DNA of 64,000 nt. It comes from Tetrahymena thermophila SB210 (Eukaryota; Ciliophora; Oligohymenophorea; Hymenostomatida; Tetrahymenidae). The stretch is taken from NCBI RefSeq assembly GCF_000189635.1, contig NW_002476477.1:1-64000 (forward strand). The letters are read 5' to 3'. Shown piece after piece: positions 5,403-60,436 of the stretch; position 1 is the stretch's first letter; every line of letters begins with the position of its first letter. Both the position numbers and the translations under genes were made by a program. The notes under the pieces were generated by a model that was not told the origin of the DNA, ran no database searches, and saw only the letters and a list, made by a program, of their open reading frames with translations.

Positions 5403-7553
5403 TAAAAATCTCTAATTGCTTATAAAATTTAAGAATTATGTTTTATATTTTAAATTAAATTAAATATACTTTATAATTTGTTTGGTTTTTTAAATAAATA
5501 AATAATTTTTGGCTCTTATATTAATTTCTTTACTTTTTTTTAAGTTTACTATCTTTTTATTCTTCTCAAATTTTAATTTTTAGCTTTTTATATTTGAGAT
5601 AAATAGTTATGTGATTTTAAATACCAAAGCTTTATTTTTTTTTTGTATAAATAAAAGATTTTTATTGATACCTTTATAAATAAGCATTATTTTTAGAAAT
5701 CAAAGAGCAAAAAATAAGAATCACAAAAATTTGAGTAAGTAATTATAATCAAAATCAGCTTTTAGTTTACGAAAAAAAAAAAAACAAGCAAACAAATTAA
5801 ATTTTTTAGCGGGAGAAAATTAGAAAAGTAGAAAGTATTTTTTACCTCATAATCTTTGTTTTTTATTCATATAATTTTTAATGTATTTTTAAATATTTCA
5901 AGTAAGCAGTAATAATTTTGAGCAAACATAAATCATTTTTACTCTAAAATTATTTTTAACTTATAATTATTTTCTAAATTCTATTTTTCTATTTTACAAC
6001 AAATTTAGAAAAATGATTGTGATTAAATTCATTTCACTTAATGAAATGATATCTATTGTTTATCATATTCATACTATTTTTAGAAAAATTTAAATATTTA
6101 AAGTCATGTTTAAAAATTTATAATAAATATAAAAAACTTTTCTTTAAAACTATTATAACAATAATTTTATCAATTATTTTCTAAAGTTTTCATTTCTTTA
6201 TAAAATACTAAATTTAAATATAAAATTGTGATTAAATTCATTAATCTAAAAAGGAGAGGTTTTTAATTTAGTATAAACATAAGAAATATTATATTACATT
6301 TTAAATTACCTTGGACGATCAAGATTCTTCTTTCAAAAATTCTTTTATATTTTTAAATATTATTTAAAAAAATCCTAATTAATAACTAAATATAAATATT
6401 TTATTCATCTAATTTATTTATTTAATCTAATACAACAGTTTTATTCATTATATTTGCAATATTTCTCATTAAAAAAATAAATTCTTTCAGGGAATATTTG
6501 AATGAAATATTATCCAACTTTTAATTTGGTTGTTTTTATTATATGATAGAAATAAAAAGAAAGATTTCCCCTTTCTCTATAAATTAATAATAAGGATAAA
6601 GATATAAATGTGGCATTAAGCTAGGATATCAAAAGATAACTATTAAATATGTCTCTTTCTAGATTTAATCAAATAAGATAAACATTTTAATGCTATCATA
6701 TTAATTTGAGTTTAAATACTTATTTAATTTACTTTTTTAATAGAAGGCTTGTTTATAGTAGTTTCTATATTTGCCTAATTTCCTTCAACCTAATTTAATC
6801 TAAAAATCAAAAAAGTATAAATAATACACCAAATTAATAGTTTTTTTGATAGTATTTGAAAACCAATAATTTTTTTCAATCCATATATAATAACTATTTC
6901 TTATTTTAATTCAATTTATCACCTAAATTACTAAAACTTTATATTTTGTTTAATTGTGAGTAAATGATTGAAGCATGTAGGAGATAAATTATTAACATAG
7001 CACGTTCAGATTTTAAGCTCTAGTAGTTGCGGAAACCCAATAATTTAATTCTTTGGCTTACTATAAAATATAAACATTCCATATTTAAAACTCTGTTAGT
7101 TAGATAAATGATATCAACAGAATAATATTTATATATAAAATTATGATTTAATTGTTTAAATTTTTCTTTCTTTTTTAAACTAGAGTATATAGATAGAGCT
7201 TTGTTTGAAAATAAAGTATAATATAGTAGTTTCTCATTAATTAAGGGCAAACTCAAATCAAAATTTTCGTAAAAATTTATTCCTTTTTAAAAAAATGTGA
7301 AAGTATGTTATAGCCCTCCATGTAAAATGCTTGGAGGAGTGAAATTGGTATATTAGGTATCGATTTCAAATCTATTGTCTCTAAAATACTCCGATTTTAA
7401 AATTTTTAATATTTAAATTTAAAATTATCGATTTTCTTCAATTAAGAGTTGCTTAGAATTAATAGAAATAACTCAATATGAAAACATGTAAAAAACGCTT
7501 TAAAATTTAAATTTATAATGCTTATATATATTTAAACCACGTATTATGTGTTG
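5403..7553. other. Spacer between family genes 2 and 3
   Basis: This is the long version of the family spacer. It contains about 700 bases (roughly 5440-6170) that are missing before gene 1 but present before gene 3. It includes the landmarks near 6625 and 7007 and a tRNA-like stretch at 7312-7380. A short frame at 7020-7256 on the minus strand has no counterpart in the other spacers and is not treated as a gene. Confidence 0.6.
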
Positions 7554-9152
7554 TCACACAACTTAAACTTCGTTTATAGGTGGCTTATTATATTATGCTT
7601 GATACATTCTATGTTATTTTTCTAAAATAACCCCTTAGTAAAAAGTTTAGTATTATTTGATATTTTTACAAGTTTATCTGGCATTATATTAATATAAGAC
7701 TACAGATGGTCTATCAATGTATTGGTTAGTTTGAGCCTAAAAGGTGCTGTATTTTGAATTTTTAACACAATTTTATTGATCAAATCTTTAGTTGTCAAAT
7801 TATTCATTAAATCTGTTTGTATATTAATTTCTAAGAGCATTTAGTGAATATAAGCTTGCTAATTATTATCTATAATCCGTTCCTTTTCTATTTTTGTACA
7901 AAAATGCGAATGTTAAAATAATTGTTAAAATATAGTAAAGTATCATAGCGGGATGGCAGAAAGCAAAAATGAGCGCAAATGAAATTACTACCATGCACCC
8001 AAAAAATGCTATTACAAATAATATTCCTATAATAGGGAAAATTACTAACAACTTCTTATAGCTATCATCTACAATTGATGTTTCCTATCTACCGTCTGAA
8101 TATGTAGTTGTTACTTCATAGTAGTTTACCGGTGCACTTAAAATATGACTTCCGCATAATGCCATAGCAAGAATAGCAGTAGCAGGAAGAACAATCAAAA
8201 TTAAGATAGGATAGTACATTAGCTTATCAAATGTTTCAGCTTTACAACACTCTAATAAGATGATTAAGCAAAGAAAACTAAACAATGAGAAAACAATTCC
8301 GGCCGCATATGTTTGAACTGCTCCAAAGGTGTAAATACCATACCTCAAATTTGCACATTCTTCATATACAATAGCTGTGAGAGGAGATATTGAAATCACA
8401 AAGACGTAGTCAAAAAATAAATTGATATAATCAATATAAGAGATATCAAACTTTTGAGAGTTTGAAATATATTTTTATTTCCATAAATACTTAAATTAGG
8501 ATGTAGTTTTTGTGATAAAGAATATCTTATAGGCGACTATAAAAAATGAGCAAAAGTAAACCCAAAAATCTGCTTAGTTGATGATGTGAAGAACATCTCG
8601 ATTTTAGGCTTCTGTGCATTAGTAATTAGAATCTGAAACAGGTTTTGAAGTAGCCTTGAAATAATACTAACCACCTTCTTTTACATAAGCATATTTAGGT
8701 CTTACTGCATAAAAGCCAATAGAAATGATCATATAAAGCACGAACATAAATTGTAGTAAAACCTTTATGCCAAAAAAGAAGAGATAAGTATTTGATATTT
8801 CTGTTGGTTTAATAGATTCAGTCACTTAATGAATCATACTTATTATCTTTCTTTCTTCTTACTTTTACCTTTCAAGATTTTGATTTTAAACAGGATTAGC
8901 AGTAGGGATATTAATTGTTGCGGGTATCTACATCATAGGAATTGCATTTTCAGTAGGTATTTCCATTCCATTTTAACCGTTATAAATAGTAGAAGACTAA
9001 GCATGCTAAAGAGTTGGCGCAGTATAAATTTATGAATTCGAATACTATGGTTGCATCACAGGTACTTACATATAAGTTAACAATTTTTGCTCATACTATC
9101 CAGTCTAAGGATTGTAAACTTATCCGATGAATGAAGGGCCTATCTGACTCAT
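7554..9152 (-). CDS. Multi-pass membrane protein, subtelomeric family copy 3
   Basis: The frame is open for 533 codons (532 residues) from ATG at 9152 to TGA at 7554, without introns. It shares the start, membrane layout and C-terminal tail of copies 1 and 2, including SPLTAIVYEECANL and CHPAM. Changes concentrate in the N-terminal Gln-rich region and in the loop after the fifth membrane segment (a GSHILSAPV-type segment replaces the Cys-rich loop of copy 1). This suggests those regions are under weaker or different constraint. It is the member furthest from the telomere. The family is unrecognised. A transporter, channel or receptor subunit are all possible, with nothing in the sequence to choose between them. 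Confidence 0.85.
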
Positions 9153-12100
9153 TAGAAATTTCAGATTTCTTAAAAAATTTAAGAATTTTTGTTTATATTT
9201 TAGATAAAATAAAATATGTAATTTATTATTTGTTTGGTTTTTTATAGAGTTTATGGCCTTATATGTATTTCTTATCCTCTTTCTAAGCGTATTATATTTT
9301 TTTAGTCTCTAATTAGTTTATTTTTTTGAGAATTTAATCAAATAGTTAAGCCATTTATTTTGATTACTTTTTAAAAAATGTGTAAGTTTAATTTTTTTAG
9401 GTTTTAAAAAAAGGTTTATATTCAAATTTTTATAAAAAAGCATCGTTTTTTTTAATTCAAAACAAAAATCAAAAACAATTATTTCAAAATTTGAGTGAAT
9501 AAAATCACAATCAGCTTTTAAATTTTGTAATAAGTAAGAAAGATATTTAATTAATTTTATAGTTAGAAAATATTTGAAAAACAAAAAGTATCTTTTCGCT
9601 CATAATATTTGTTTCATACTCATATAATTTTAAGTATTTTTTAAATATTTTAAGAAACCTTTAAGAATTTTTAACAAATATAAAATAATTTTTCTCTAAA
9701 ACAATTTTAACTTATATTTATTCTAACAATTATAATCTAAAATATATATTTCTCTAAGTTACAACCAAGAAATTTAAATATTAGATTATGATTAATTTGA
9801 TTTCTGTAATAAAGAAATGATATCTATCTATTCATACAATTTTTTTGAGGAAAATTGAAATGTTTAAAGCCACCTTTTAGAATTTATAATAAATATAAAA
9901 CACATTTTTCTAAAATTAATTTTAACTTCTAATTATTCTAACAATTACTTTCTAAAGTATTCATTTATATTTGTTACATTAAATTTAAATATAATATTGT
10001 GATTTATATCACTTCTCTTAAAAGGAGATGCTTCTAATTTAGTGTAAACGTAAGAAATTCAATCTTACATATTATTCAATTAATTTGAACGATTAAGATA
10101 ATTCTTTCAAAAATTCTTATATATCTTTAAATATTAGAAGAAAAAATCCTAATTACTTTATTTAAATATTGTATTATTCAAATTCATTAATTTAATCTTA
10201 TTGATTTTATTCATTACATATCCAAATTTTCTCTTTCTACAAAATAAATTCTTTGACTTTTAGGATATTGCATTTTGAATGAAATTTACCCAAGTATTAA
10301 ATTTTGTGTTTTTATAATTATTGATAGAAATTATCAGAACAATTATTCTCTTTTCTTATAAAAGTATTAAAGTTATAAAAGTGAAAATAAGCTGGGATAT
10401 CTAAAGATAACTTTAAAAATGTTCTTTATATTTTAGTCTAACAAGAAAATAATTTTAATGCCATCATATGAATTTGGATTAAAATACTTATTTACTCTGC
10501 TTGAATTATTAGAGTGATTTCTATATTTACCTAACTTTCAAATTTAATCTAAGGAGGAAAAAAAGAAAAAAATATTAATTAATCAAATTAATAGACTGAT
10601 TTGATTATGTTTAGAAATCAATTATATCTTTCTTTTTTTTCTCAATCCATAAATAATAGTTATTTCTTTTTTTGATTGAACTTATCACCTACATTTAAAT
10701 TTCCATGAATTTTTTACTTTAAAATCTTTGAGCTGTCTAACATCTATTTATTTATTAAATTTTTTGTAAGATTACTTCTTTTTTTTAAATGTACAGAATT
10801 ACCACACATGCATTCACACACAAAAGGAGCCAAAACACTTCATTTATTGATTTTAAAATTTATTTTATTAGTATAAATTATTATAAAAGTCTAATTAAAA
10901 TAAAATCATATTTTTTAATAGTACCTACTTTATAATTTTAATATTTAAGACATGCAAAAAATACAAGATAATCGCAATTTATAATATTCCATAGTATCAG
11001 ATTAAAAAATATTATATTATATATACTCCACAATTAATATTTTTGAGTCCTTATTAATAAATAGTACTATTTTTTATAAAGAAAATATAAAAATATTTGG
11101 TTAATTTTAAATAAATATATGTTTCTCCATTAATTTTAAATTTTATTATTGTAATTGATTATTCTATTTATTTAATTGAGGTTTGAGCATGACTTAAAAT
11201 AATTAGAATAATTATTAATTAGGATTTTTTTGTTTTTAATTGATTTGAAAAAGATATTTTAAATAGATAGAATTTGAATAAAATCATTTGAGATTCTTAA
11301 TAATTTATAAGTATAATTAAATTTATTTTTTTATTAGGTTTGATTTTATGAATTTTAGTAAAAGCTGATTAATTAATAAAACTTTATCTTATATTTTATT
11401 TATATTTTATTGTAAATATTTCATTCAAGTAAATAGCCTAATAAAAACCTAAAAGAGCACCTCCAGATTTTAATCTTTTAAACGCGGAATTTCAATAATT
11501 TAACTATTGGATTTTCTACTTATAATAACTTTTTCAGGTTTTAAGATTCCACTAATTAGATAATGTATTTACATAAAAACTATGATATTGCAGTCTAAAT
11601 ATATATTTTTTTTTTAAATAAGTAAATATTATATATTATTTTATTTTAATATAAAGCATTGAATTTAATTTATTATGCAATAAAATTTTATATAAATTCA
11701 TTAAATTAATTCAATAAAATAATATAGTTCTCTTAATGATAATTTACTTTAACAATTAATTTTTAAAAATATTTAGAATTACTTCAAGTTATTAAAATCA
11801 ACCAAGACTTCTAATTTTCAATTATTAATTAAAATGTGCAATAAAATAATTAAATCCTTACTATTATTAGCTTTAATTTATTGTCTTTGAAATTATAATG
11901 TTTGCTTCTTTTATTAACTTATTTTACATAAATAATTTTTATCTAAATATTTAACTATTTATTTGTTTATTTTTAAACAAAAGTTACTTGAAATTTTTTT
12001 TACAAATTTTTGTCTTTCCTAATTATTCTTAAAAAATCATTGATTTTAGAATAAAATAACTTTATTTTTACTTCAAATATTTAAATAAAAATATAAATTA

Positions 12101-13141: not shown

Positions 13142-16100
13142 ATGAATTTAATTTATCGAATATTTATTTGTTTAAGCTTAGTAAAGCTCTCTCATTAGTA
13201 AGTATGCCCTTTCGACTTCAACTTAGGATATTCATCAAGAAATTGCTAAGGAACAAGCTCTGAAAATGTTGTTTTAGGTGGTGAATTATTCTACTTTAAA
13301 GATTAAGATTAATTTTCTAATCTTATGGTTAATTATGGAAGCTCTGGATTATTTGGAGTATGGAATTTAACTGACGCTAGTCTCCTCTATTCCACTACTT
13401 ATTATTAAGATTAAAATATTGAATTTCATTCAATCTTTGTTGATTAGTAAGTCAATTTTTCTGATCCAACTATATCTTAGACTTTTGTTTACATTGTTGA
13501 TTAAAGATTGAACGTATATTAGTAAAGCCTTTATTAGGATTAAGGTAAGCTCATCCTTTAAGGCTCATCTATGGTAAATAACTTCCCTATATAAATTAAA
13601 TTATGTTACAATATTAGAAAAAACATCCTCTTCTACCCTTAAGATAATTATGTAAGCTTTTTATTTTCCTTAAACAATTAAACCATCATAAACAAGCTTT
13701 AAATGAAACATTAATGATCTATATTTTTTTAAAATATTATTTATAGCTAAAACAATTTTATACATTATTATTAAATAAATATTTATAAGAAAGAAAAAAA
13801 ATTATTATTAATTAATAGGTCTACTAAAGAAAAAATAATTATGATTTTTAAGTAGAAATAGACTCTTAAGGAATTCAATGCGAAAGTGATTTTAATTAAG
13901 AATTTATTTTTATTCTTTCTTCTTAAAGCTTTATTTACGTGATAAATCAGAATTCTTTTTAAATAGAAAAGTAATTTTAATTTAATTAAGGGAAGATCAG
14001 TTATTTACAATTTAATTAAAATTATTGGTTGACTTTCATAAGTTAAAATAAAAGCAATTACTTAATTTACTTATTAGATTAAAATGTGAATCCTGTTCTA
14101 TTATTTTCTACTCCTAATTAAATTAACGATTATGGATTTCTAAAGAATAATACTTTAATTGCTTGCGGGACAAACTCATTAATTTAATTTGGCAATTATT
14201 CAGTTAATCCTTTAGCTTAAGGAATCGATACTACTGACTATGATTACAAAAATATTTAGCCTGATCTTGATATAAGTTAACTTAATTATACTAATTTAGT
14301 TATTGGAGACGATTACACAGTATTTTATGGGAGCCAATCAGTTATAACTATAGTAATAAATACAAATCTAGTTGTATAGCTTCACAAATATTTAGGAGCT
14401 TCGTAATATTTTATATTTATTTTAATATAATTTTCTTTTGTAATAAAATTAAATTTAATGAAAATTATTTTATTTATTTCAGGTTGCTAGTTGGATTGAT
14501 TCCTAAAGCTGTTATTGAGGGTTCATTGCTAAAAACTTTATCATCAAGCGGTCTTTTATTTTTGGAGATGTCAAATGGATAATTAAAAAAGCACACAAGT
14601 TGTTTTAGGGCTTTATCTGTTTATGAAGAAAAAATAGTTGGATTATATTTTGATGATGAATTGCTTAGAGTATATGCCCTTGAAAACTAAGGAAAATTAG
14701 GATATTTTGGTTACCCTAAAGGAGAATACCTGACTCAGTACTATAATCTTTCACAAAATAGCGCATGGAATTATAATAAAGTAAATGAGAAAATTAAATT
14801 TATTAATTTCTAATTTATTAATATGAAAATATTTGAAGTTCAAATATGATTAATTATGAGATAAAAAATTTGGTTTGGCTTTTTTAATTTTGAATGCAAA
14901 TTTCTTAATTGGAAAAGTTTATTTTAACTTTAAGTAACAAATATACACATATTTTAATATACTTATAAATATATTATACAAATTTTATATGAAATAATTT
15001 TGAGATAAGTTATTAGAAAATATAAGTTTCATTTACTTAATGAAATTTCTTATTTATATTTTCTAATAATGATCTATTTTTAAACCAATATTTATTTAAT
15101 ATTATATTCTAAATAATTTATTTATTTTTTATTATTTATTAAATAGAAAGCAGATTAAATATACATTTGGGGTACTGGAGGTCCTTCTAATTTTGTTGTT
15201 GTAACTTCATATCTTAATGGAACATATTTGGGATAGCTTTAATTTAATGATAACTTTACTGTTAACAATGTCTACTATGATAATTATTTAGAAATTATAA
15301 TCGTGGTTGATCCGACTTAAAGCATATAGGCCTTTAGCCTTTAAAATTTTTTAAAGGTTTATGAATAATCAATCGAAAACAATAATATTTAAATCTTTTA
15401 AAGTTAATTGGGTGTGATTATTATTTACTAATCTATTATTTAAATATTATCCAAAGGATAAACTAATTAATATCTTTCTATTAATAATTTGAACTTAAAA
15501 GAATTTATATTCGAATAAACTTACTTTGACTCTATCTCAAACTCTTTAATTATGGCAAAAACAGATAAAACAATATAAGTACTTTTTACTATTTTAATTG
15601 ATAAATTTATTTCATGGTTTTTGTAATTTTCAATTATTTTTTGTAAAAAAAAATATATATTTAGGTATTCAGCATAGATAGTTAATTTAATGCAATTAGC
15701 TAAAATTTGTCAATTTTAATGTAGAATAATTAAATAATCTCAAATATTTGCTATGGAAATCAATACCTAATTATTTTAATGAATCTTCCTAATCAAGTAG
15801 TTGTTATAAATAAACAAACAAATAAATAAAGTATCATCAATAATTTAACTATAATTCCAAGCCAATGCTTACTTCTGCTTAATGAGGATCTTCTTTTAGT
15901 TATTTCTAATATAAGTGATCTGTTGTTTATGAATGTCTCGTCTTTAAACATTTTAAAAAATGATGTTTTAGATGAGTTAAGTAGTGTTTCTTTAATTGAA
16001 ATAGATTTTTAAGAAAATTTATTAATAATATTGCTTTCTAGTTCAAAGATTATTAGCTATGATTACATCTAACTAAAATAAGTAAATTATAATTAATTAT

Positions 16101-19100
16101 TTATTAAAATATTTAAAATTTTATTTGAAAAGGTTTGCGATTGGACACCAGTAAATGCTATTACTGTTTCTACATTCTAGATAAACACAAATTATAAAAT
16201 GATTGTTTATGGCTCGGGTATTTTAATATATTTTACTGATTACTCTTAGAAGAAATTAATAAGTGAAATTCAATTATCAGAAGGAGCTTAAGGAGGGGTT
16301 GTTGATTTATAAACAAACAGCTATTTTGTTTACACAAATAAAATTTATTAATTTGATCTTTAAACAAATAATTTAATCCAAGTTTCTATATTTTAGGTAA
16401 TTCTTTTATTTAGTTTACATTTTTACATTTTAAAAATAAAATACTAGCATGATGATATAATTACATAATTAGAAATAATTTATGAATGGAACATAATAAT
16501 AACATCTTCATTTGATAACACTATGGCAGTATGGAGTTACCCTGAATTATAATTTATGCAAAGATTATACCACGATCCAGTAGATTGTGTAAAAGTAAAT
16601 AATTTTGAAGTAGAATTAGAAAGAAACAGAGTATTCTCAGGTTGTAGGTATGGAAGTGTTTACATCTGGAAGAAGTATGCTTTAAATAATACTTTTTATT
16701 TAGGAAATGATTTGTAATATATCTTAACAAATTGGAATGTAACGTCAATTATAGTTGATAACTCGAATGATTACTTATTTTTGATTGGAGTAATTTAAAT
16801 TCATCTTAAACTTTTATTGCTTTTAAATCTGTTTTAAACAAATTTTAAATATTTTTTATACTAATAAAGTGGTACTGGTATCCATTAATAATCTAACTAA
16901 GTACAGTAGAGTAATCAATTAATGTTATTGCAATGTTATAAGGTATAAATGCTGTATACGACAAGCTTAATTAGTGCTTAATACTTTCTGATTAAGATGG
17001 AAATGTTTGGAATTATAATATTACTTCAAGAACTTATATTTTCAATAAATAAAATGCAATTCATCAAGTATTTTTATTTTTAATCATGCAATCATTTAAT
17101 TTTTATTTTTCAAGGGTTGGGTAAATTAATTAGTTATTGATCCAGCAAATTAAATTTTTGCAAGTATGGGTGATGATTGCTCGATTTAAATATGGCCTTA
17201 TAACTCTGATAAGAGCTAAATACCTTTATTTTTTTTTAGGAATACAGCAAAAATACAATCTGGAAAATTGGATTTAGTATATTTTTAAACTTTTATAATT
17301 TATTATTTAAAAACTTTACTATTTAAAGAATAACTAGATATTGATTATTTCAGATGCCAATTATAATATTCTATTGCTCAAATATCCTTTGCTATATGTT
17401 ATTAAATCCTTTGATTCACACACTGCTTAGATAAACTCGTTTATAATTAATTGGAATTAATTTCTAGTAAATTTAATTATTTTTAAATTATAGATAAATA
17501 TTTATTTTGTTTTACAATTAGATTTTATCTTTTTCAAATGATAAAACTGTAAAATTTTGGGAATATGAGCTTGGAATTGAAGAAAAGTACTTTTAAATTA
17601 TATAAAGAGCTACTTCAGTAATGAGTTATGCCTATGATGAAACAGAAAACACAATATACTATGTTAGATCTGAAGGAAATGTATAAAAGTGGTCGATCAT
17701 GAGTGAGTAGACAGAAAATGGGTTTAATTTGTAATATAATGATAGATATAATAATACTATATTTTTAATCAACGATGAAGTTTTTATTTTAGCTACTACA
17801 AAATAATTAAAGTTAATAATGAAATAAACTTTAGAAGTACTTGAAAGTATACAAGTGGAATGCTCTCATAGTATAAATATATATGATATTATTATTTGTG
17901 GTTATCATTCTAAGTTGACCTCTTTTAAGCTAATCTAAACTAATATAAATAACAATTATAGCTTCTAATTAAAATATTTGTATTAATAAAATTTGGATTA
18001 TCCATTGTATAAACTACAGAATGGAATTAAATCTAAAACTGAATTCCTAATTATTCTTGTAAACCATTCTATTTCTTTCATAGAAAGCTCTACAGGTTTA
18101 GTAACTAAATCATTTCCTCTTATTCACAAATAAGTTATTGTAGAATTAATAATATTTAGCTAACAAATTATATTTAGCTATTCCTTTGATGGCTAATTAG
18201 TGTAATATGACATATAATAAAATAAAGTTTTAATTTATAGAATAATTTAGTTAAATTATCCAATACTTTAAGTGGTAATAAACGCAGATTATATTTTAGT
18301 GAATCTAAAAAAGTCAAACTTCTGTTAAATCTATAAAAATGACAATTCGACAGTTTTTACATTACTATCTCTTATTTAAGCAGCTTCTCGCTGGCAAACA
18401 AATTAATAAATAATTCTCTCTCCAGAAAATTAGACTATTCTTGTGAGTTCTGATTTCTACTACATTTCTTTTGATTATAAATCATTTAAATAGCTTTATT
18501 ATTATCAAAGCAATATTTTTGTAGAAAGCACATTTATGAAAAGAAAAGTTACATTAATTTAATAGAATTAATTCTTTATTTAATAAGGATAATCTTTTAT
18601 AGTCATAGCATCTAGTGATTTGTCTTAGTAAAATATGATAGTTGTCTAAAAAATATTAAACAGAAACTCATTTTATGAAAATATAAATATAAAATTAGAT
18701 TAAATAAATGATTCATATGTAGTTACAGTTCTTTCATTTAACCTTCAAGGATTTAATTATTTAATGACTGATACTCAAGGATAAATGTCATGCTAACAAA
18801 ATTTGTAAGATGCTAATTTTTTTGACATCTACAAGAGAGTTCGCGATTATTTGAATTTGAGGAATAACTTATAAACTGATTATAGTTTATAAATGTCTCA
18901 TTTATTTAATTTAAATATGACTAAGTCATTTACATTTTATGGATTCCCTTAAATAAATTCTAATTTCTAAATGCTTGTACAATTAACAGTCTAAGGAGAT
19001 AATTAAAAGTAATTGATTAATGGATATTTCTATTTCAATTAATTATTGCAATCATAAAATATAGCAAGCTTAAAATTAAATCATTTAATAATTGAACTTA

Positions 19101-22100
19101 AAGATGATGATAATAATGAGTAACTTTCAAGTATTAAATTAAAATAAGTTGAATTTATTTCAAGCTATATAATTTTTAACAATTAATCATTTAATATGAG
19201 TAATTTACAGCTTTTTCACATGAAAAATATAACCATAAACCAATAAAATATATCTTTTTGTTAAAGTGCTTTTATTATTACTAATACTCAATCAATAATT
19301 ATTGAAGATAGTATTATTAACAAAAATACCTTAAATACAACTTCATTTTTTAATTTCAACAATTCAATTACTAACAACCAATCTTCATAGTTCATTTTTA
19401 GCAGAAATTAAATATTAAATAATAAGTTAAATTAAAGCTCAATTTTTTTATTTGAATTTATAAGTGATGTTGTTTTTCAGAGTAACCAAATCGAAGACAA
19501 CTTTAGTGAGGAAAGCTCTTATTTAATATAATCATTAATTACTACTAAAATAATTATTTCAAATATGTATTTTAATAACAATATAAATTTAGCAATAATA
19601 AATAATTAGAAAATATTAAAGACTATTCAAAATTCTTTGATGTTTACTATTGAGGTTGAGAATAATTATTTAGAAATATCAAAAAGTATTATAAACTAAA
19701 ATAGATATTTAGCTACAGATAGTTATATGATTTATTCTAATTCATCACAAATTTTACTATAAGATACATAAATAAATAAATTGATTAGTAACTCTATGAT
19801 TAGTTTAATAACCTTATTATCTTAGAATTTGTAATTAAACTAATTAAGTGCTTCAGAAAGTCAATCATAAATTTAACCTTTTTTCTCTATTAGTTTGAGC
19901 AAAGTTTGGATATAGTAGTCTTCATTTGACTCAAATAGCCTTCTTAATCAATTTCTAGGAGGAGGTGTTTTTTACTTTATATCTTCTTAAGTAAATATTT
20001 CAAACAGTACATTTTCTAAGAATTCAGCCTAAAGTAATTATTATTATTTTTTTATTATTTTATGAAATATATAATTATCTATTTAGATGGAGGATCTCTT
20101 TATTTTATTGACTAATGTGATGGCTTAATTTCTAATACTACTTTTATTAGCAATTATGCTAGGGAAAATGGAGGAGTGCTTATTCTGAATAACTCTGATA
20201 TTCAAATATAAAAGACAATCTTTTAATTTAATAAAGCTTTGATAGGAGGAGTTGTAAGGTATTTAACATTTTAACCAAAGTTTTTGTAAAAAAGTAGTAA
20301 AAACAAAGTTTTAGATTCATGCGGAACTACTTTTGAAAATGTTTGTTTATAAAATTAAGGTTAGTTTTATGGAAATAATTTTGGTTCTTATCCATAAACT
20401 ATTAAAATAAATAATATAACAGTAGAAAATAATGGAGTATATACGTTTTAAAATGTGCAAAGTGGAACTTAAGGCCAAATTTTAGAAATTTAATTGTTTG
20501 ATGAAGAAGGAGATATAGTAAAAGTATAAAATAGTGATAGTTTGCCATCTAGTATAGCTTAAGAGTTTTAATATTATTAAGTTGCTCTATATGAACTATA
20601 TTAAGTAAACTAATTGCAAGATATTTCTTTAAGAAATTTAAAGTTAGACGGCACTACATTAAAATAATTTTAAACTGATAAATTCCTTTTAAACTAATAT
20701 TCATCATCAGGTAATAGATTTAAACAATAAAAATGTTAAAAATATACTTATTGCTATTTTTAAATCACTTATATTATTATCAAACAAATTTTAACAAAAT
20801 AATTAATTATTATTGAATTAAAAGCTATCACAATAAAATATACAAATTATATTAATAATTTAATAGAAAGAAAATTTTTTCTAAAAATTAAATATTAAAA
20901 AATTTATTGAATAATCTGAAAAAACATAAAAATAATTTTAAAAAAATTAGGATAACTTGGAAAAAAAGGAGAAGCTGTTTTATTTATCTATGGATTTGAG
21001 CTTTTATCAAACTAGAGTTTAAGATTTACTGATTCTATAGTTATTTTTATCAATTACATATTTAGATAGTGCTAGGTAGGTGAGATAATATAGCCTGCTT
21101 GCACTAATTGCTCTTTAGCAAATTGTTACACCTGTTAAAATGGGACTTACTCTATTTAAGATCCTACATAAAATTCAAATAATTTACAATGTAAACCATG
21201 CGATTATAAATCTTGTGATTCTTGTGAGGGAAATAAAATATCTTTAAAGAAAGGATTTTGGAGATTAAATAAATACGATGACAATATCATTCCTTGTGGT
21301 AAGTCAATAGATTTATGTACCGGTTAAGAGGATACTAATTATTGCTCTGAAGGGTAATTTTGAAATTTAAACATAGATTTATATACAAATATTTCTTATC
21401 TAAATATAAAGATAAATAGGTCCTTTATGTTAGACTTGTGATTATTTAGGATAATTTTGGAATAGCTCATATGCTTAAAATAATTTAGATAATAAATGTT
21501 TTAAGTGTGGTTCCGAATCATAATATATAGCTGCATAGTTCTTTCTTAGCATTATAACATTATTATATTTGACATATATTTTTTATGAGACAAAGGTAAA
21601 TCTAAATTTGATGGCTAAAGCTCTAATTTTAGATAGAATAGGACTAATAAGACTAGGAACTTCAGGATAAATAGGTGAAAAATCTTTTTACAGTAGAATT
21701 ATGATTAGATATCTATAAATATTTCTAAGTATCTCTACTTTGAGTCCTCATTCTATTTTTAATGTTTAGATCACTTCAATATTCTCACCTGTAAGCTCAA
21801 ATTAAAATTTACTTGACTGTATGTTAAGTAAATTTAGTAATACAGTCCCAGTTTATTATTATAAAGTGCTATTTTTTGTGGCGATTCCTTTCATCATAAT
21901 TCCTTTAGGATATATATTTTATAATTTAATCATATTTATTTTAAGTTACTTTACCAACCAAACTAGAACTTCTTATAATTATGAATACAAAGTAAATTTT
22001 ATTATTTAATATTTTTCATAATTTTAACACTATTTATTAAACATAAAAGAAAGATGCATCTATAATATGTTTTATATTTCTTTTCTTCTTTTTGTAGCAG

Positions 22101-23733
22101 AGTACATTTGAATCTTTAGTTTAACCATTTACATGTAAGCAAATAGGAAGTTAGTATTTAATAAGCTATTACTTGTTAGAAAAATGCTATTCTTCAGATC
22201 ATATATTTTTAATTGGAGTGGTTATTCTACCAGCAATTTTTTTATGGATAATTTTAATTCCAGGTATATTAATGTGGAAAATTTGGAGCAAATCTTAGTA
22301 GCAGGATAATTTTTCATAAGAATTTTATTTAACAAAAAAAGTATAAATTAATTAAAACAATAATAATCTATTAAAAATTTATTTTAATAAAAGTATGGAT
22401 TTCTTTTTTATGGCTATAAAAGAAATTTTTATTTATGGGAGTTTTTGTCTATGAATTTAAGACTAATATTAGTGTTTCTTGTATAATATTTTGATGAAGA
22501 TATTCTCAGCAGAGCTTCTTTAATGTTGGTTTTCCTTTACTTGTATCTTATGCTTTTGCAAAAACATAAAGTAATTTAAGTTTCTTAATCAGAACTAAGA
22601 TTTATTAATTTTATTTTAAAGCCTTATTAAAAGAGTAATTACTTTAAGATAGACATGCTATTTTCTTAAATATGTTGTCTCCTTACAATAATAAGCATTT
22701 TATTAAATGTCTTACAATCAGATATATTTTTATATTTTGGATAGATAATAATCTATATTCTTTAGCTGGTTGCTTTCTTGAGAATTTTTTTAATGTATTT
22801 AGATGCTTAAATTAGATTAAATTACCATAACTTAAAAAAAAAAAAGTTAGTATAATGCTTCAAAGCCATTTTATTAAGAGACTGTTTAATAAATAGGATT
22901 TTCAAGAGTATTTTAAAAAGATATTTATTATATTTCTATTTATTAATATTTCATACTGAGGATAATTCATTTAAAAAATTCAATAATTTCTAATTACTAA
23001 GACTTTGGCTTCAAGATTTTATTCAAAAAAAAAAGAAAAATATTTAGGCTTCTTTGATTTAGAGTTTGAAAACTTAAGAAAATTATTTAAAAGATTTTTC
23101 TCCACAAAGTAACTCTTTAAGAAAGACTCTACTTAATAATAGATCACCTAAAAATTTTCTACTAATATAAAACTCTACTTAATCGTGCCTTAAAGATAAC
23201 TCTCCATAAAGATAAAGCACATATAAAAATTAAAAATAAACCTTTTAAATAAATGATATCAAAAGTAGTAATATTAACTTTACACCATTAAATTCCCTTA
23301 ATACTAAAAAGTTAGGACAAAAAATGTCCTAAAAGCTAATTTAAATGCAGCAATTAGATTTTGAGTCTTAAATTAGCGAATCTTATTCAGAATTTGGTAG
23401 GCAAGATTCAATACAAAATTAAGATTTATATTATTTTAAAGTTAAAAGTAATAATTTTATTTATTTAAATTTTATTAAAACATAAAATTATTTTAACTGA
23501 AAAATTTAGAAAATTCAAGAAATATTACTTAATTTAATAATTAAGAATTTATTCAGACAAATAAAAATGACTTGGAATTAGAATCGATATTTTTAAGTGT
23601 ATAAGCTACATAAAGACAACAAACAATCGTCAATGCTAATCAAGTAAATATTTTTGAGCTTTTATTTTTTAATTTATTTTTTTTTAAGTGTGAAATAGTT
23701 GACAAAAACCAAATAAACAAATTGAATGACTGA
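13142..23733 (+). CDS. Giant surface protein: propeller, beta-helix, Cys-rich, multi-TM (copy 1)
   Basis: A multi-exon gene of several thousand residues starts at ATG 13142 (signal peptide MNLIYRIFICLSLVKLSHQ) and ends at TGA 23733. Introns fixed by phase include 13652-13818, 14403-14482 and 14781-15146; a further one (about 21357-21410) ends just before EGQIGPLC. In order: a beta-propeller/WD-like region to about 17900 (for example VWSYPEL and VKFWEYE blades); a parallel beta-helix at about 18900-20700 with FSKN, FISN and FQFN alternating with GGGVF, GGSLY and GGVLIL, the FxxN/GG pattern of Pmp-type adhesins; a Cys-rich growth-factor-receptor-like module at about 21060-21520; then several membrane spans (21540-22800) with the motif YGFLFYGYKRNFYLWEF; and a Ser/Gln-rich cytoplasmic tail. 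It probably sits in the plasma membrane with a large ectodomain. Ligand and role are unknown, and the middle exon joins are not all resolved. Confidence 0.8.
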
Positions 23734-24573: not shown

Positions 24574-27500
24574 ATGCATTTAATTTATCAAATATTTATT
24601 TGTTTAAGCTTAGTAAAGCTCTCTCATTAGTAAATATGCCCTTTCGACTTTAACCTAGGATATTCATCAAGAAATTGCTTAGGAACAAGCTCTGAAAATG
24701 TTATTTTAGGTGGTGAATTATTCTACTTTAAATATTAAGATTAATTTTCTAATCTTATGGTTAGTTATGGAAGCTCTGGATTATTTGGGATATGGAATTT
24801 AACTGACGCTAGTCTCCTCTATTCCACTACTTATTATTAAGATTAAAATATTGAATTTCATTCAATCTTTGTTGATTAGTAAGCCAATTTATCTGATCCA
24901 ACTATATCTTAAACTTTTGTATATGTTGTTGATTAAAGATTGAATGTATATTAGTAAAGCCTTTATTAGGATTAAGGTAAGCTCATCCTAAAAGGCTCAT
25001 CTATAGCAAATAATTTACCTATTTCAATAAAATTATGTTATAATATTAGAAATAACATCCTCTTCTACCCTTAAAATAATTATGTAAGTTTTTTATTTTC
25101 CTTAAACAATGAAAATATCAAAATAAGCTTTAAATTAAACATTATTAAATGATCCTTGTTTTTAAAAAATATTATTTACAGCTAAAACAATTTTATACAC
25201 CACCAATATTTAAATTTATATGAAAGAAAAATAATTATTATTTATTTATAGGTCTACTAAAGAAAAAATAATTAAGATTTTTAAGTAGAAATAGACTCTG
25301 AAGGAATTCAATGCGAAAGTGATTTTAATTAAGAATTTATTTTTATTCTTTCTTCTTAAAACTTTATTTACATGATAAATCAGAATTCTTTTTAAATAGA
25401 AAAGTAATTTTAATTTCATTATAAGAAAATTAACTATTTATAATTTAATTAAAATTATTGGTTGACTTTTGTAAGTTAAAATAAAAGCAATTACTCAATT
25501 TACTAATTAGATTCAAATTTTAATTCTGTTTTACTATTTTCTACTCCTAATTAAATTAATGACTATGGATTTCTTAAGAATAATACTTTAATTGCTTGTG
25601 GGGCTAACTCATTAATTTAATTTGGCAATTATTCAGTAAATCCTTAAACTTAAGGAATCGATACTACTGATTATGATTACAAAAATATTTAGCCTGATTT
25701 TGATATAAGTTAACTAAATTACACTAATTTAGTTATTGGAGATGATTACTCAGTATTTTATGGGAGCCAATCAGTTATAACTGTAGTAATAAATACAAAT
25801 CTAGTTGTAAAACTTCATAAATACTTAGGAACTTCGTAATATTCTTTATTTATTTTGATATTATTATTCTTTTGTAATAAAATTAAATTTAATGAAAATT
25901 ATTTTATAATTTTAGGTTGCTAGTTGGACTTATTCCAAAAGCTATTATTGAGGGTTCATTACTAAAAACTTTATCATCAAGCGGTCTTTTATTTTTGGAG
26001 ATGTCAAATGGATAATTAAAAAAAAACACAAGTTGTTTTAGGGCTTTATCTGTTTATGAAGAAAAAATAGTTGGATTATATTTTGATGATGAATTGCTTA
26101 GAGTATACGCCCTTGAAAACTAAGGAAAATTAGGATATTTCGGTTACCCTAAAGGAGAGTACCTGACTCAGTATTATAATCTTTCATAAAATAGCGCATG
26201 GAATTATAATAAAGTAAAAGATAAAATTAAATTTATTATATTCTAGTTTATTAATATGAAAATATTTTTGAAGTTCAAATATGATTATTTATGAGATAAA
26301 AAATTTTGTTTAGCTTTTTTTATTTTGAATTGTGAATTTCATTATTGGAAAAATTTATCTTAACAATAAGTGCTAAATATACGCATATTTTAATATACTT
26401 AAATTAAAGTATTATATTAATTTTAAATCAAATAATTTAGCGATAAGATATTATAAAATAAAATAAAATATTTTATTTAATTAATGGAATTTCTTATTTT
26501 TAATTTTTAACAATATTCTATTCTTAAACAGATATTTAAAATTATATTTTTTATTCTAAATAATTTGATTATTTATTAAATAGAAAGCCGATTAAATATA
26601 TATTTGGGGTATTGGAGGTCGTTCGAATTTTGTTGTTGTAACTTCATATCTTAATGGAACATATTTGGGATAGCTTTAATTTAATGATAACTTTACTGTT
26701 AACAATGTCTACTATGATAATAATTTAGAAATTATAATCGTAGTTGATCCGACTTAAAGCATATAGGCTTTTAATTAAAAAAATTTTTTAAAGATTTATG
26801 AATAATCAATCAAAAACAGAAATATTTAAATCTTTTAAAGTTATTTGGGTGAGATTATTATTTATTAATCTGCGATATAATTATTAACCAAAGGATAAGC
26901 TAATAAATACCTATTGATAAATAATTTGAACTAATAAGAATTTATATTTGAATAAACTTACTTTGACTCTATCTCCAACTCTTTAATCATGGCAAAAACA
27001 GATTAATCAATCTAAGTATTTTTACTATTTTAATCAATAAATTTTATTTATGGTTTTTTTATTTTTCAATTATTTTTTGTAAAAATTTATTTAGTTACTC
27101 AACATTGACAGTTAATTAAATGCTATTAGCTAAAATTTGTCAATTTTAATGGAGAATAATTAAATAATATCAAATATTTGCTATGGAAATCAATACTTAA
27201 TTATTTTAATGAATCTTCCTAATCAAGTAGTTGTTATAAATAAACAAACAAATAAATAAAGTATCATCAATAATTTAACTATAATTCCAAGCCAATGCTT
27301 ACTTCTGCTTAATGAAGAACTCCTTTTAGTGATTTCAAATATAAGTGAACTGCTATTCATGAATGTTTCATCTTTAAACATTTTAAAAAATGATGTTTTA
27401 GATGAATTAAGTAGTGTTTGTTAAATTGAAATAGACTTATAAGAAAATTTATTAATAATATTGCTTTCGAGCTCTCATATCATTAGTTATGATTACATAT

Positions 27501-30500
27501 AACTAAAATAAGTAAATTATAATAATTTATAAAAGTATTTAAAATTTTATTCGAATAGGTTTGTGATTGGACACCAGTTAATGCTATTACTGTTTCTACA
27601 TTCTAAATAAACACAAATTATAAAATGATTGTTTATGGCTCAGGTATTTTAATATATTTTACTGATTACTCTTAGAAGAAGCTAATAAATGAAATTATAT
27701 TATCTGAAGCAGCTTAAGGAGGGGTTATTGATTTATAAACAAATAGCCATTTTGTTTACACTAATAAAATTTATTAATTTGATCTTGAAACAAATAATTT
27801 AATCAAAGTTTCTAAATTTGAAGTAATTCTTTTTATTTATTTAGTTTGTATTTTTATATTTTAAAAATAAAATACTAGCATGATGATATAATTACGTAAT
27901 TAGAAATAATTTATGAATGGAACATAATAATAACATCTTCATTTGATAACACTATGGCAGTATGGAGTTACCCTGAATTATAATTTATGCAAAGGTTATA
28001 CCATGATCCAGTAGATTGTGTAAAAGTAAATAATTTTTAAGTAGAATTAGAAAGAAACAGAGTATTCTCAGGTTGTAGGTATGGAAGTGTTTACATCTGG
28101 AAGAAGAATGCTTTAAATAATACTTTTTATTTAGGAAATGATTTGTAATATATCTTAACAAATTGGAACGTAACCTCAATTGTAGTTGATAACTAGAATG
28201 ATTACTTATTTTTGATTGGAGTAATTTAAATTTATGTTAATCTTTTATTGCTTTTAAACCTATTTTAAACTAATTTTAAATCTTTTTATACTAATAAAGT
28301 GGTATTGGTATCCATTAATAATCTAACTAAGTACAGTAGAGTAATCAATTAATGTTATTGCAATGTTATAAGGTATAAATGCTGTATACGACAAGCTTAA
28401 TTAGTGCTTAATACTTTCTGATTAAGATGGAAATGTTTGGAATTATAATATTACTTCAAGAACTTATATTTTCAATAAATAAAATGCAATTCATCAAGTA
28501 TTTTTATTTTTAATGATGCAATCATTTAATTTTTATTTTCAAGGGTTGGGTTAATTAATTAGTTATTGATCCAGCAAATTAAATGTTTGCAAGTATGGGT
28601 GATGATTGCACAATTTAAATATGGCCTTATGACTCTGACGCAAGCTAAATACCTTTATTTTTTTTTAGGAATACAGCAAAGATACAGTCTGGAAAATTGG
28701 ATTTAGTATATTTTTAATTTTTAATAATTTAATATTTAAAAGCTTTACTATTTAAAGGATAATTAGATATTGATTATTTCAGATACCTATAATAAAATTA
28801 TATTGCTCAAATATCCTTTATTGTATGTGATTAAATCTTTTGATTCACACACAGCTTAGATAAACTAGTTTATAATTAATTGGAATTAATTTCTAGTAAA
28901 TTTAATTATTTTTAAATATAGATAGATATTTATTTATTTTATTTTACAATTAGATTTTATCTTTTTCAAATGATAAAACTGTAAAATTTTGGGAATATGA
29001 GCTTGGAATTGAAGAAAAGTACTTTTAAATTATATAAAGAGCTACTTCAGTAATGAGCTATGCCTATGATGAAATAGAAAACACAATATACTATGTTAGA
29101 TCTGAAGGAAATGTATAAAAGTGGTCAATCACGAGTGAATAGACAGAAAACGGATTTAATCTTTAATATAATGATAGATATAATAATACAATATTTTTAA
29201 TCAACAATGATGTTTTTATTTTAGCTACTACCAAATAATTAAAGTTAGTAATGAAAAAAAATTTAGAAGTACTTTAAAGTATTCAAGTGGAATGCTCTCA
29301 TAGTATAAGTATATATGATATTATAATTTGTGGTTATCATTGTAAGTTGACCTCTTTTAAGCTAATCTAAACTAATATAAATAACAATTATAGTTACTAA
29401 TTAAAATATTTGTATTAATAAAATTTGGATTATCCATTATATAAACTATAGAATGGAATTAAATCTACAACTGAATTCCTAATTATTCTTGTAAACCATT
29501 CTATTTTTTTCATAGAAAGCTCTACAGGTTAAGTAACTAAATCATTTCCTCTTATTCATAAATAAGTTATTTTAGAATTAATAGAATTTAGTTAACAAAT
29601 TATATTTAGCTATTCATTAGATGGATAATTAGCCTAATATGAAATACAATAAAATTAGGTTTTAATTTAAAGAATAATTTAGTTAAATTATCCAATACTT
29701 TAAGTGGTAATAAACGCAGATTATATTTTAGTGAATCTAAAAAAGTCAAACTTCTGTTAAATCTATAAAAATGACAATTCCATAGTTTTTACACTACTAG
29801 CTCTTATTTAAACTTCTTCTCGCTGGTAAACTAATTAATAAATAATTCTCTCTCCAGAAAATTAGACTATTCTTGTGAGTTCTGATTTCTATTACATTTC
29901 TTTTGATTACAAATCATTTAAATAACTTTACTATTATCAAAGCAATATTTTTGTAGAGAGCACATTTATGAAAAGAAAAGTTACATTAATTTAATAGAAT
30001 TAATTCTTTATTTAATAAGGATAATCTTTTATAGTCATAGCATCTAGTGATTTGTCTTAGTAAAATATGATAGTTGTCTAAAAAATATTAAACAGAAACT
30101 CATTTTATGAAAATATAAACATAAAAGTGGATTAAATAAATGATTCATATGTAGTTACAGTTCTTTCATTTAACCTTCAAGGATTTAATTATTTAATGAC
30201 TGATACTCAAGGATAAATGTCATGCTAGCAAAATTTGTAAGATGCTAATTTTTTTGACATCTACTAGAGAGTTCGCGATTATTTGAATTTAAGGAATAAC
30301 TTATAAACTGATTATAGTTTATAAATGTCTCATTTATTTAATTTAAATATGACTAAGTCATTTACATTTTATGGATTCCCTTAAATAAATTCTAATTTCT
30401 AAATGCTTGTACAATTAACAGTCTAAGGAGATAATTAAAAGTAATTGATTAATGGAAATTTCTATTTCAATTAATTATTGCAATCATAAAATATTGCAAG

Positions 30501-33500
30501 CTTAAAATTAAATAATTTAATAATTGAACTTAAAGATGATGATAATAATGAGTAACTTTCTAGTATAAAATTACAATAAGTAGAATTTTTTTCAAGTCAA
30601 TTAATATTTAACAATTAATCATTTAGTATGAGCAATTTACAGCTATTCCGCATGAAAAATATAACCATAAACCAATAAAATATATCTTTTTGTTAAAGTG
30701 CTTTTATTATTTCTAATACTCAATCAGTAGTTATCGAAGATAGTATTATTAATAAAAATATCTTAAATACAACTTCATTATTTAATTTCAATAATTCAAT
30801 TACTAACAACCAAACTTCATAGTTCATTTTTAGCAGTAATCAAATATTAAGTAATAAGTTAAATTAAAGCTCAATTTTTTTATTTGAATTTATAACCGAT
30901 ATTATATTTCAGAGTAACCAAATTGAAAATAACTTTAGTGAGGAAAGCTCTTATTTAATTTAATCATTAATAGCTACTAATATAATTATTTCAAATTTTA
31001 ATTTTAATAATAATATTAATTTAGTAATAATAAATAATTAGAAGATATTGAAAACTATTCAAAATTCTTTGATGTTTATTATTGAGGTTGAGAATAATTA
31101 TTTGGAAATATCAAAAAGTATTATAAACTAAAATAAATATTTAGCTAGAGATAGTTATTTGATTTATTCTAATTCATCATAAATTTTACTATATGATACA
31201 TAAATAAATAAATTGGTTAGTAACTCTATGATTAGTTTAATAACCTTATTATCTTAGAATTTGTAATTAAACTATTTAAGTGCTATAGAAAACCAATCAT
31301 AAGTTTAACCTTTTTTCTCTATAAGTTAGAGCAATGTTTTAATATAGTAGTCATCTTTTGACTCAAATAGACTTCTTAATCCATCTCTAGGAGGAGGTGT
31401 TTTTTATTTTATATCTTCTTAAGTAAATATTTCAAACAGTACATTTTCTAAGAATTCAGCCTAAAGTAATTATTATTATTATTTTATTATTTTAAGTAAT
31501 ATATTTTTCTTTATTTAGATGGAGGATCTCTTTATTTTATTGACTAATGCGTTGGTTTAATTTCTAATACTACTTTTATTAGCAATTATGCTAGGGAAAA
31601 TGGAGGAGTACTTATTCTAAATAACTCTGATATTCAAATATAAAAGACAATCTTTTAATTTAATAAAGCTTTGATAGGAGGAGTTGTAAGATATTTAACA
31701 TTTTAACCAAAGTTTTTGTAAAAAAGTAGTAAAAACAAAATTTTAGATACATGCGGAACTATTTTTGAAAATGTTTGTTAATAAAATTAAGGTTTGTTTT
31801 ATGGAAATAATTTTGGTTCTTATCCATAAACTATTAAAATAAATAATATAACAATAGAAAATAATGGAGTATATACGTTTGAAAATGTACAAAGTGGAAC
31901 TTAAGGCCAAATTTTAGAAATTTAATTGTTTGATGAAGAAGGAAGTTTAGTAAAATTATAAAATAATGATATTTTGCCATCAAGTATAACTTAAGAGTTT
32001 TAATATTATTAAGTTGCTTTGTATGAACTATATTAAGTAAATTAATAACAAGATATTTCTTAAAGAGATTTAAAGTTAGATGGTACAACATTAAAATAAT
32101 TTTAAACTGATAAATTTCTATTAAACTAATACTCAGCATCAGGTAATAAATTTAAGCAATAAAAAGTTTTTAATAAATATACTTTTACTGAATTTAAAAT
32201 TATTTCTTTTTGATTAAACTAATTTAACCATTTATTATTGAATTAATAGCTTTCAAAATAAAATATACAAATTAAATTGATTCTTTAATTGAAAGAAAAA
32301 TTTTTATTAAAGATTTTAGTTTATTTATTAATAATTTAGTACTTAGAAAAAATTTTTAAAACTGTTGTTTAAGAGATTTAAAATAATTATCGCTATATAT
32401 CTTAATAATTAGTTATTAATTTAAAAAAATAATTAAATAATTTTTACAAATAATTATATAAAGAAAACATTATTACCATCTCACATTACAAAAATAGAAA
32501 GATTCAAAGAAATAGACATTATACATTTAGCATTTTTTGATTATTTTTATATACTTGAGAACAAACAGAGTATTTGATCTATTTATTGATAAAAGTTTCT
32601 CAAAAATATGTTTTTATTTTTAAAAAATTTAAACATTAAAATATTTATTTAATCATCTGAAAGAACATAAAAATAATAAAATAAAAATATTAGGATAAAT
32701 TGGGAAAAAAGGCGAAGCTGTTTTATTTATTTATGGCTTTGAGCTTTTATCAAATAAAAGTTTAAGATTTACTGATCCTTTGATTATTTTTATCAACTAC
32801 ATATTTAGATAGTGCTAGGTAGGTGAGATAGTTTAGCCTGCCTGCACTAATTGCTCTTTAGTAAATTGTTACACTTGTTAAAATGGGACTTACTCTATTT
32901 AAGATACTACATAAAATTCAAATAATTTACAATGTAAACCATGCGATTATAAATCTTGTGATTATTGTGAGGGAAATAAAATATCTTTAAAGAAAGGATT
33001 TTGGAGATTAAATTAATAAGATGACAATATTATTCCATGTGGTAAGTCTTAAGATTTATGTAATGGTTAAGAGGATACTAATTATTGCTCTGAAGGGTAA
33101 TTTTGAAATTAAAACAAAGATTTATTTTCAATTATTTCTGATCTAAATATAAAGATAAATAGGTCCATTATGTTAGACTTGTGATTATTTAGGATAGTTT
33201 TGGAATAGCTCATATGCTGAAAATAATTTAGATAATAAATGCTTTAAGTGTGGTTCCGAATCATAATATATAGCTGCATAGTTCTTTCTAAGCATTATAA
33301 CATTATTATATTTGACATATATTTTTTATGAGACAAAAGTAAATCTAAATTTGATGGCTAAAGCTCTAATTTTAGATAGAATAGGATTAATAAGACTAGG
33401 AACTTCAGGATAAATAGGTGAAAAATCTTTTTACAGTAGAATTATGATTAGATATCTATAAATATTTCTAAGTATCTCTACTTTGAGTCCTCATTCTATT

Positions 33501-49354: not shown

Positions 49355-49952
49355 TATTTTATAAAAGTTTATTTGTAAATGTCAAACAAGTTTATATTTA
49401 TTAATTTATTTTTACAAAAATTTAGTAATTAATAATTTTTTAATAAACATAAATAATAGTTTTACATTATCTGTCTTGAAATTAATTGCTTTAAAGCTAT
49501 TAATTATTCTTCTATTATTATTATCCTTATTTTTTATAAATTTCAATATATTTGTTTTTAATTATTCATAAGTAAAAAAAAATATTTTATAAACCTTTTA
49601 TTAATTTCCACCCAAATTACTTAAATTAAATTTTTTATTTAAGGAATCTACTTAAATTAAATTTTTCATAGAGAAAATACTTTTTAAATATGAATATTTA
49701 AAAAATATCAGTCATCCCATATATCAACCATGACCTCCCTCGCCTTTCCTTTTTTTTTGTTGATTTATTATTGAAGGAAATATATTTGGTTTTTCTAATA
49801 AAATTGTAAAAATGCAAAAAATTATATTAATTTATATTGAATTAATTTATTATAAATTAGTAACTATTTTTTATTTATTAACAGAAAAAAATTTTTGTTT
49901 TATTTAGCATTTAATTCATTTATTTAAGAAATTGGTTATTTATTGTTAGTTG
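49355..49952. other. AT-rich intergenic region
   Basis: About 600 bases of A/T-rich sequence separate two co-oriented genes. It includes a short pyrimidine-rich patch near 49724-49765. No coding potential or RNA gene was recognised. Confidence 0.5.

Positions 49953-59290: not shown

Positions 59291-60436
<1,146 letters not shown>

Follow-up and report, generated by a model that had tools for sequence, protein, structure and literature searches.

An 18-exon gene of Tetrahymena thermophila SB210, here called gene A, encodes in a single computed model a predicted WD40-type propeller, a predicted beta-helix, a Cys-rich stalk and a multi-pass membrane domain, in that order. It lies in a 64,000-nucleotide stretch of contig NW_002476477.1 (assembly GCF_000189635.1, positions 1 to 64,000; hereafter the window), belongs to a family of 13 collinear copies, and shares its beta-helix, stalk and membrane parts with many other loci of the same genome. 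The membrane part, or base, is likely, though not proven, to be homologous to the fungal Pkd2/FLC-type proteins of the Pfam family TRP (PF06011), a link that runs through paralogs. We tentatively favor a reading in which gene A encodes a giant surface receptor of a much-multiplied ciliate superfamily, whose TRP-like base would be gated by contact or a ligand and would let Ca2+ enter.

Gene model and gene family

The window is AT-rich (13-30% G+C per kilobase) and reads with the ciliate code, in which TGA is the sole stop. The model of gene A was computed from codon scores trained on its own open frame together with GT-AG introns, and was corrected by comparison with paralogs, which, with the open frame, set the start of exon 15 at 22050; the last exon and the exact C-terminus are its least certain parts. 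A first-pass annotation of the sequence had described a fusion of four modules at 18900-22800. All four are present in gene A, and that interval lies inside the gene, but it covers only part of it, and the WD40 part sits upstream of its start. The features are as follows, all on the forward strand.

13142-23733 (+): gene A, 18 exons, 2993 residues, 348 kDa; TAA and TAG read as Gln, TGA as stop
13142-13651, 13819-14402, 14483-14780, 15147-15578, 15665-16081, 16133-16396 (+): exons 1-6 of gene A
16448-16789, 16870-17067, 17115-17276, 17329-17466, 17522-20033, 20087-20710 (+): exons 7-12 of gene A
20951-21353, 21412-21991, 22050-22340, 22394-22570, 22622-23447, 23510-23733 (+): exons 13-18 of gene A
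13142-13198 (+): putative signal peptide, residues 1-19, placed by eye on a hydrophobic N-terminus that the paralogs have too
13199-16396 (+): N-terminal region, residues 20-835, no fold assigned and no Pfam or PDB match
16448-17956 (+): predicted WD40 beta-propeller, residues ~836-1260 (PF00400 above cut-off; PDB matches)
17957-18796 (+): residues 1261-1540, propeller-like or linker, judged by position only
18797-19951 (+): predicted beta-helix, N-terminal half, residues 1541-1925, fast-evolving (FxxN motifs; substitution rates)
19952-20484, intron 20034-20086 inside (+): predicted beta-helix, C-terminal half, residues 1926-2085, GG and FxxN turns (motifs; profile comparison)
20485-21069, intron 20711-20950 inside (+): stretch between beta-helix and Cys-rich module, residues 2086-2200, collinear in paralogs
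21070-21508, intron 21354-21411 inside (+): Cys-rich stalk, 16 Cys, residues 2201-2327
21527-22804 (+): membrane domain, residues 2334-2705, probably TRP-like and PF06011-related (hydropathy; paralog comparison)
22805-23733 (+): tail, residues 2706-2993, presumed cytoplasmic from the positive-inside count
24574-35427 (+): gene B, tandem copy of gene A, 18 exons, 2979 residues, 91.5% identical to A

Genes A and B lie head-to-tail, with 2725 of 2979 aligned residues identical. A 7-nucleotide difference that seemed to truncate B by a frameshift was rejected as such: the aligned paralogs place an intron there, at 22571-22621 of A and 34314-34357 of B. The difference thus falls within that intron, and gene B is complete. 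Intron 12 differs in size between the copies, being 240 nucleotides in A (20711-20950) and 551 in B (32143-32693), 311 of them extra. A DNA search of the organism's own genome (101 Mb, 445 contigs) yielded 16 matches, spread over five contigs. Besides A and B, 11 collinear paralogs were modelled: nine form a tandem array on C15, and contig C94 carries the other two. Of these 11 crude models, ten align with A past residue 2690, some with gaps; the eleventh aligns to residue 2551, and its later exons were found by tblastn. The ratio of nonsynonymous to synonymous substitution rates (dN/dS) between A and B is 0.23 over the whole length and ranges from 0.16 to 0.29 among the modules, and the gene family is under purifying selection.

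Two further stretches of contig C15, each lying between full copies, match gene A in part (48373-50111 and 85076-86537) and are likely relics. Exon 11 of one C15 copy (from 26323, minus strand) and exon 12 of another (53805-54419, minus strand) each hold an in-frame TGA; these copies are possibly decaying, or the stops may fall in unrecognised introns.

The core of the protein is far from confined to this family. The Cys-rich and transmembrane (TM) exons of A match at least 142 places in the genome, which resolve into at least 128 loci, a lower bound given that scoring covered 135 of the 515 first-look candidates; beta-helix exon 12 matches 126 places (138 of 138 candidates scored). In at least 58 of the 128 or more Cys/TM loci, a beta-helix precedes the Cys/TM match in the same orientation and no more than 3 kb away; 45 of these loci lie outside the 13-member family, where the median gap is 643, and none of the loci listed has the two parts in any other arrangement within 3 kb. 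The fusion had been called unusual, a description that does not survive the recurrence of its beta-helix/Cys-rich/multi-pass core in one genome.

The front end behaves otherwise. The propeller-side segment 17522-18900 (residues 1116-1574), the segment that the search covered, matches the 13 family members only. Four distant members were partly read, and three have long N-terminal regions with no firm assignment; one of the three, on C110, gives WD40-type scores that are weak (E 0.0015 and 0.0072) and below their cut-offs. The N-terminal region of the fourth member, on C332, reads from the sequence directly as Cys-rich repeats. Profile comparison recovered the beta-helix in the distant members at 97.4, 96.3 and 96.0%, and at 64.6% for C332 (reversed controls at most 0.5%). 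Their sharing the propeller of the window family was considered and rejected, the comparison giving 0.2-0.5% against 0.2-0.4% for reversed controls. With the beta-helix shared and the propeller not, the core appears to consist of the beta-helix, the Cys stalk and the multi-pass base, while the front end is exchangeable.

The same data bear on whether two genes, one for the propeller and beta-helix and one for the Cys-rich and membrane parts, have mistakenly been read together. The splicing model was computed from sequence, which leaves some room for such an error, but the order is the same in 13 paralogs and at least 58 loci, with no other close order, and all 15 of exons 1-15 have the same length in A and B although 10 of 14 introns align with gaps. 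We therefore regard 13142-23733 as one gene and a mistaken join of two as extremely improbable.

Outer modules and their rates of change

Given the signal peptide, the protein probably faces outside, and 42 N-glycosylation sequons precede the first membrane span. WD40 domains are mostly intracellular, so a WD40 propeller after a signal peptide is uncommon. The whole-protein Pfam scan was made on a model of gene A that preceded two later intron corrections and lacks the 16 residues of the fourth span; PF00400 (WD40) scored 33.3 bits in it, above its cut-off of 27, with the best stretch at residues 1094-1128, and 11 more propeller models, all under their own cut-offs, mapped to residues 836-1238. 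In the PDB, the WD40 part has 126 distinct sequence matches with E<=0.01, the best at 5.3e-12. The propeller matches correspond to 16448 to about 17900 in the window, and both propeller and beta-helix are folds predicted from sequence. Residues 20-835 gave no match in the Pfam scan and none in the PDB at E<=10. The idea that they form further propellers was dropped, a profile comparison with the WD40 part giving 1.8% (reversed 0.3%).

The repeated FxxN and GG motifs reported for the beta-helix are indeed enriched. In residues 1590-2160, the pattern GG[AILVGS] occurs five times (two overlapping in one GGG) against 0.29 expected, a count that none of 2000 shuffles reaches, and FxxN occurs 11 times against 5.6 expected (P 0.017, shuffles); residues 30-1540, taken as a contrast, have no enrichment of either motif (P 0.61 and 0.23, respectively). 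The spacing is regular, with GG at residues 1929, 1954, 1981 and 2006 (steps of 25, 27 and 25) and FSKN, FISN and FQFN at residues 1946, 1972 and 1998 (steps of 26 and 26). The likeness to chlamydial polymorphic membrane proteins (Pmps) holds for these repeats; the Chlam_PMP model (PF02415) itself gives the window protein 13.5 bits, under its cut-off of 20.6. A relative on C46 reaches 19.8 bits, and two places on C178, each overlapping a match of exon 12, reach 23.8; the model also matches in one of 14 control genomes. The beta-helix of one relative found two weak matches in the PDB (best E 0.021).

Among the copies, the two outer modules change at different rates. The median dN/dS in exon 11 is 0.24 for the WD part and 0.47 for the beta-helix part (13 copies, 78 pairs, one copy cut at its in-frame stop). 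In 60-residue windows over eight C15 copies, a set that omits the copy with the stop and gives 27 or 28 pairs, median dN/dS is 0.15-0.29 at residues 1116-1475 and 0.37-0.70 at residues 1476-1955, and exons 12, 13 and 14 give 0.20, 0.20 and 0.21 (nine copies, 36 pairs). A whole-length scan on crude models, in which the last two windows are unreliable through mis-splicing, peaks again at residues 1561-1920 (0.64, 0.49 and 0.64). The N-terminal half of the beta-helix changes at about twice the rate of its neighbours, a pattern expected of a recognition surface, which it may be.

A pectin-lyase fold is a beta-helix, and the window protein could in principle be a membrane-bound polysaccharide-modifying enzyme with that fold as its catalytic part. 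Such a role has been proposed in print for MRC2, a member of the mating-type recognition complex of Tetrahymena; the available text of the report gives it a pectin-lyase fold, predicts eight TM helices and suggests carbohydrate modification (PMC10901506). We consider an enzyme very improbable here, as the Pfam scan's 13 matches at E<=10 include no lyase or glycosidase family and the fast-evolving N-terminal half is unlike an active site.

The membrane base and its probable link to PF06011

Both the Cys-rich module and the multi-pass C-terminus with a WEF signature were seen at first pass, and both are borne out, the latter by hydropathy and by the signature YGF-x3-GYKR-x2-YLWEF. Residues 2334-2705 have eight clear hydropathy spans, and a ninth, TM2 near residue 2398, was added by eye. 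Under a nine-span layout, N-terminus outside and C-terminus inside, the inner loops carry 7, 3, 6 and 6 Lys and Arg residues, the fourth value dropping to 4 by hand count after intron correction, and the outer stretches carry 2, 2, 2, 0 and 0, a distribution that would fit nine spans. The Cys/TM module gave nothing usable in the PDB as a single query (E<=10), and two weak matches as a profile (E<=1).

Six Cys/TM modules were scanned against Pfam. PF06011 matches three of them at E<=1 (best 1.5e-7), and Ephrin_rec_like (PF07699) one (0.0024). NCD3G, the nine-Cys domain of family 3 G-protein-coupled receptors, weakly matches one (E 0.028), and an early uncorrected model had seven strongly hydrophobic spans, as would suit a G-protein-coupled receptor of the 7-TM type that carries a class C-like Cys-rich domain. 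We find such a receptor improbable: the corrected gene model gives eight clear spans, no 7TM family is among the Pfam matches, and it is PF06011 that recurs in these same modules.

Across the genome, PF06011 has 12 matches at E<=0.01, four of them above cut-off, and it has none in any of the 14 control genomes. By hand count, eight of the 12, including all four above cut-off, lie directly downstream of superfamily matches (three on C176, two on C138 and one each on C311, C332 and C40); the other four (C33, C338, C262 and C117) do not. A window Cys/TM1-3 query, made without the 16 residues of the fourth span, reached C332 at 9.2e-29, C311 at 3.7e-17, C40 at 2.8e-16 and C138 at 7.0e-16, and a TM6-9 query, which includes 16 residues now read as intron, reached C40 at 3.2e-4, at the same place as the PF06011 match. 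When four PF06011-matching loci were spliced and aligned with two window-family modules, 45 columns were invariant; these include the W-E pair, PY and all but three of the 16 cysteines of the stalk. An hhalign comparison of the window-family TM profile (six sequences from crude models) with the four relatives gave 99.88% (E 2.7e-32), against 3.1% for reversed relatives. A base described at first as channel-like or receptor-like can accordingly be placed more closely, as multi-pass and, via paralogs, probably PF06011-related.

In the available text of the relevant reports, the fission-yeast member Pkd2 is mechanosensitive, admits Ca2+ and has a nine-helix membrane domain (PMC11277609), and work in A. 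nidulans used PF06011 to find TRP-like proteins, mentioning both FLC flavin carriers and Pkd2 (PMC10732042). A search of the open-access literature, an incomplete test with most subscription papers outside it, turned up no TRP link for ciliate proteins.

This background also feeds a reading that we rate nearly as likely as a gated base, though doubtful in itself, namely an adhesin or receptor on a TRP-like base that does not conduct and serves as an anchor, a small-molecule transporter of FLC type or a scaffold for a complex. Yeast PF06011 proteins are also placed in the FLC flavin carrier family, according to the accessible part of the same report, in which Pkd2 and other fungal members are, on the other side, described as affecting Ca2+ (PMC10732042). 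The large ectodomain and the parallel with the mating complex would fit recognition without conduction, and the sequence itself gives no counter-argument.

Proposed working and known systems

If the base is gated, as we tentatively favor, we infer a protein at the cell surface, with conduction by the base, gating by the outer part and a bound partner. It would sit in the plasma membrane, possibly that of cilia, where the signal peptide would put about 2,330 residues outside. The beta-helix and propeller would touch a partner cell, prey or matrix, with the fast-changing half of the beta-helix as the candidate recognition surface; the Cys stalk, rich in disulphides, would relay a pull or a change of shape to the TRP-like base; binding or pull would open the base to cations, Ca2+ in particular; and the tail would couple to signalling. 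What the first-pass annotation called a receptor or adhesin does have predicted recognition-type folds on a receptor- or channel-like base in one protein.

Several observations weigh against this reading. PF06011 matches the window protein neither whole (E<=10) nor as a Cys/TM module (E<=1); the link goes via paralogs at 25-27% identity, and two script-spliced relatives, with alignments that span profile positions 155-408 of 426, score 26.7 and 21.7 bits against the PF06011 cut-off of 28.5. In hhalign the whole Cys/TM module gave 100% (5.3e-70) forward, but its reversed control reached 55% (E 1.2e-4), so the E-values of these profile comparisons are not calibrated. PF06011 includes so-called flavin carriers, and homology is therefore no proof of conduction. 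TM2, placed by eye, falls below the hydropathy threshold, and an extra hydrophobic stretch (1.59) lies near the C-terminus. A second dN/dS peak, 0.60 at residues 121-240, is as fast as the beta-helix, and the top beta-helix pair has dN/dS 1.07, so that relaxed constraint is indistinguishable from selection for diversity. The structure prediction that had been proposed as a check was run with AlphaFold on two sequences each of exon 11, which includes the WD40 end, and exon 12; at predicted local distance difference test (pLDDT) values of 30.1 and 32.0 it is unusable and uninformative, speaking neither for nor against the folds.

A wider reading, which we hold with more doubt, is of a ciliate receptor-channel superfamily, MRC2 included, in which WD40 propellers, Cys repeats and other outer domains would be exchanged on a fixed base of beta-helix, Cys stalk and Pkd2/FLC-type TRP domain, contact with partners, prey or surfaces would be turned directly into Ca2+ entry, and the beta-helix would be the specificity element. 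Seven domains predominate in species-specific Tetrahymena genes, WD40 and GFR being two of them, according to the available account (PMC6564038). The 128 or more Cys-rich multi-pass loci previously had no mechanism here, and a Pkd2/FLC-type TRP base, if real, would make self/non-self and contact sensing testable as channel gating.

The window holds other genes besides A and B. On the minus strand, 783-9599 carries three tandem membrane-type protein genes (frames of 569, 627 and 681 codons, with DNA 75-90% alike over the stretches listed), 59294-60508 a polyubiquitin gene of tandem 228-nucleotide units (four about 90% alike, the fifth 72%, over a compared frame of 300 nucleotides), and 62629-63651 a protease frame, presumably papain/cathepsin-like. 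On the plus strand, 39636-40280 has repeats that we take to be of MORN type, and 41889-49351 has long open frames, the second of which (43892-49351) seems by its translation to have an outer part rich in beta structure, a single likely membrane span, placed by eye, and a tail rich in Gln and Ser; these frames are absent from the Cys/TM and beta-helix search matches listed.

Among known systems, chlamydial Pmps (PF02415) have the same GG and FxxN motifs, one per 25-27 residues, but stand on an autotransporter barrel where the window protein has a eukaryotic multi-pass base. Pkd2/FLC proteins share the plan of an outer N-terminal domain, a multi-span domain (nine-helix in Pkd2) and a cytoplasmic tail; as far as the available text goes, their outer part is an ML or TRP_N domain (PMC10732042) instead of a propeller, beta-helix and Cys-rich stalk. 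The O3 mating substance of Paramecium was set aside as a relative, being unrelated in its available description, with a kinase-like domain and EF hands.

The mating-type proteins MTA and MTB combine a furin-like segment rich in Cys with TM helices (PMC3608545), five in number (PMC10901506), and with MRC1 they resemble the window protein, by description, in an outer region, Cys-rich furin-like/GFR repeats and TM helices. They differ in having five TM helices and in that the available text mentions neither beta-helix nor propeller; genes A and B, moreover, lie head-to-tail on the same strand with at least eight hydrophobic spans, unlike the head-to-head pair of MTA and MTB. MRC2, compared by description, is the closest lead, and a lead only: like the window protein as modelled, it is large and membrane-spanning and combines a beta-helix, in its case a pectin-lyase fold, with TM helices, eight by prediction, but members of its complex are 92-212 kDa as against 348 kDa, and the available text mentions no WD40 for it.

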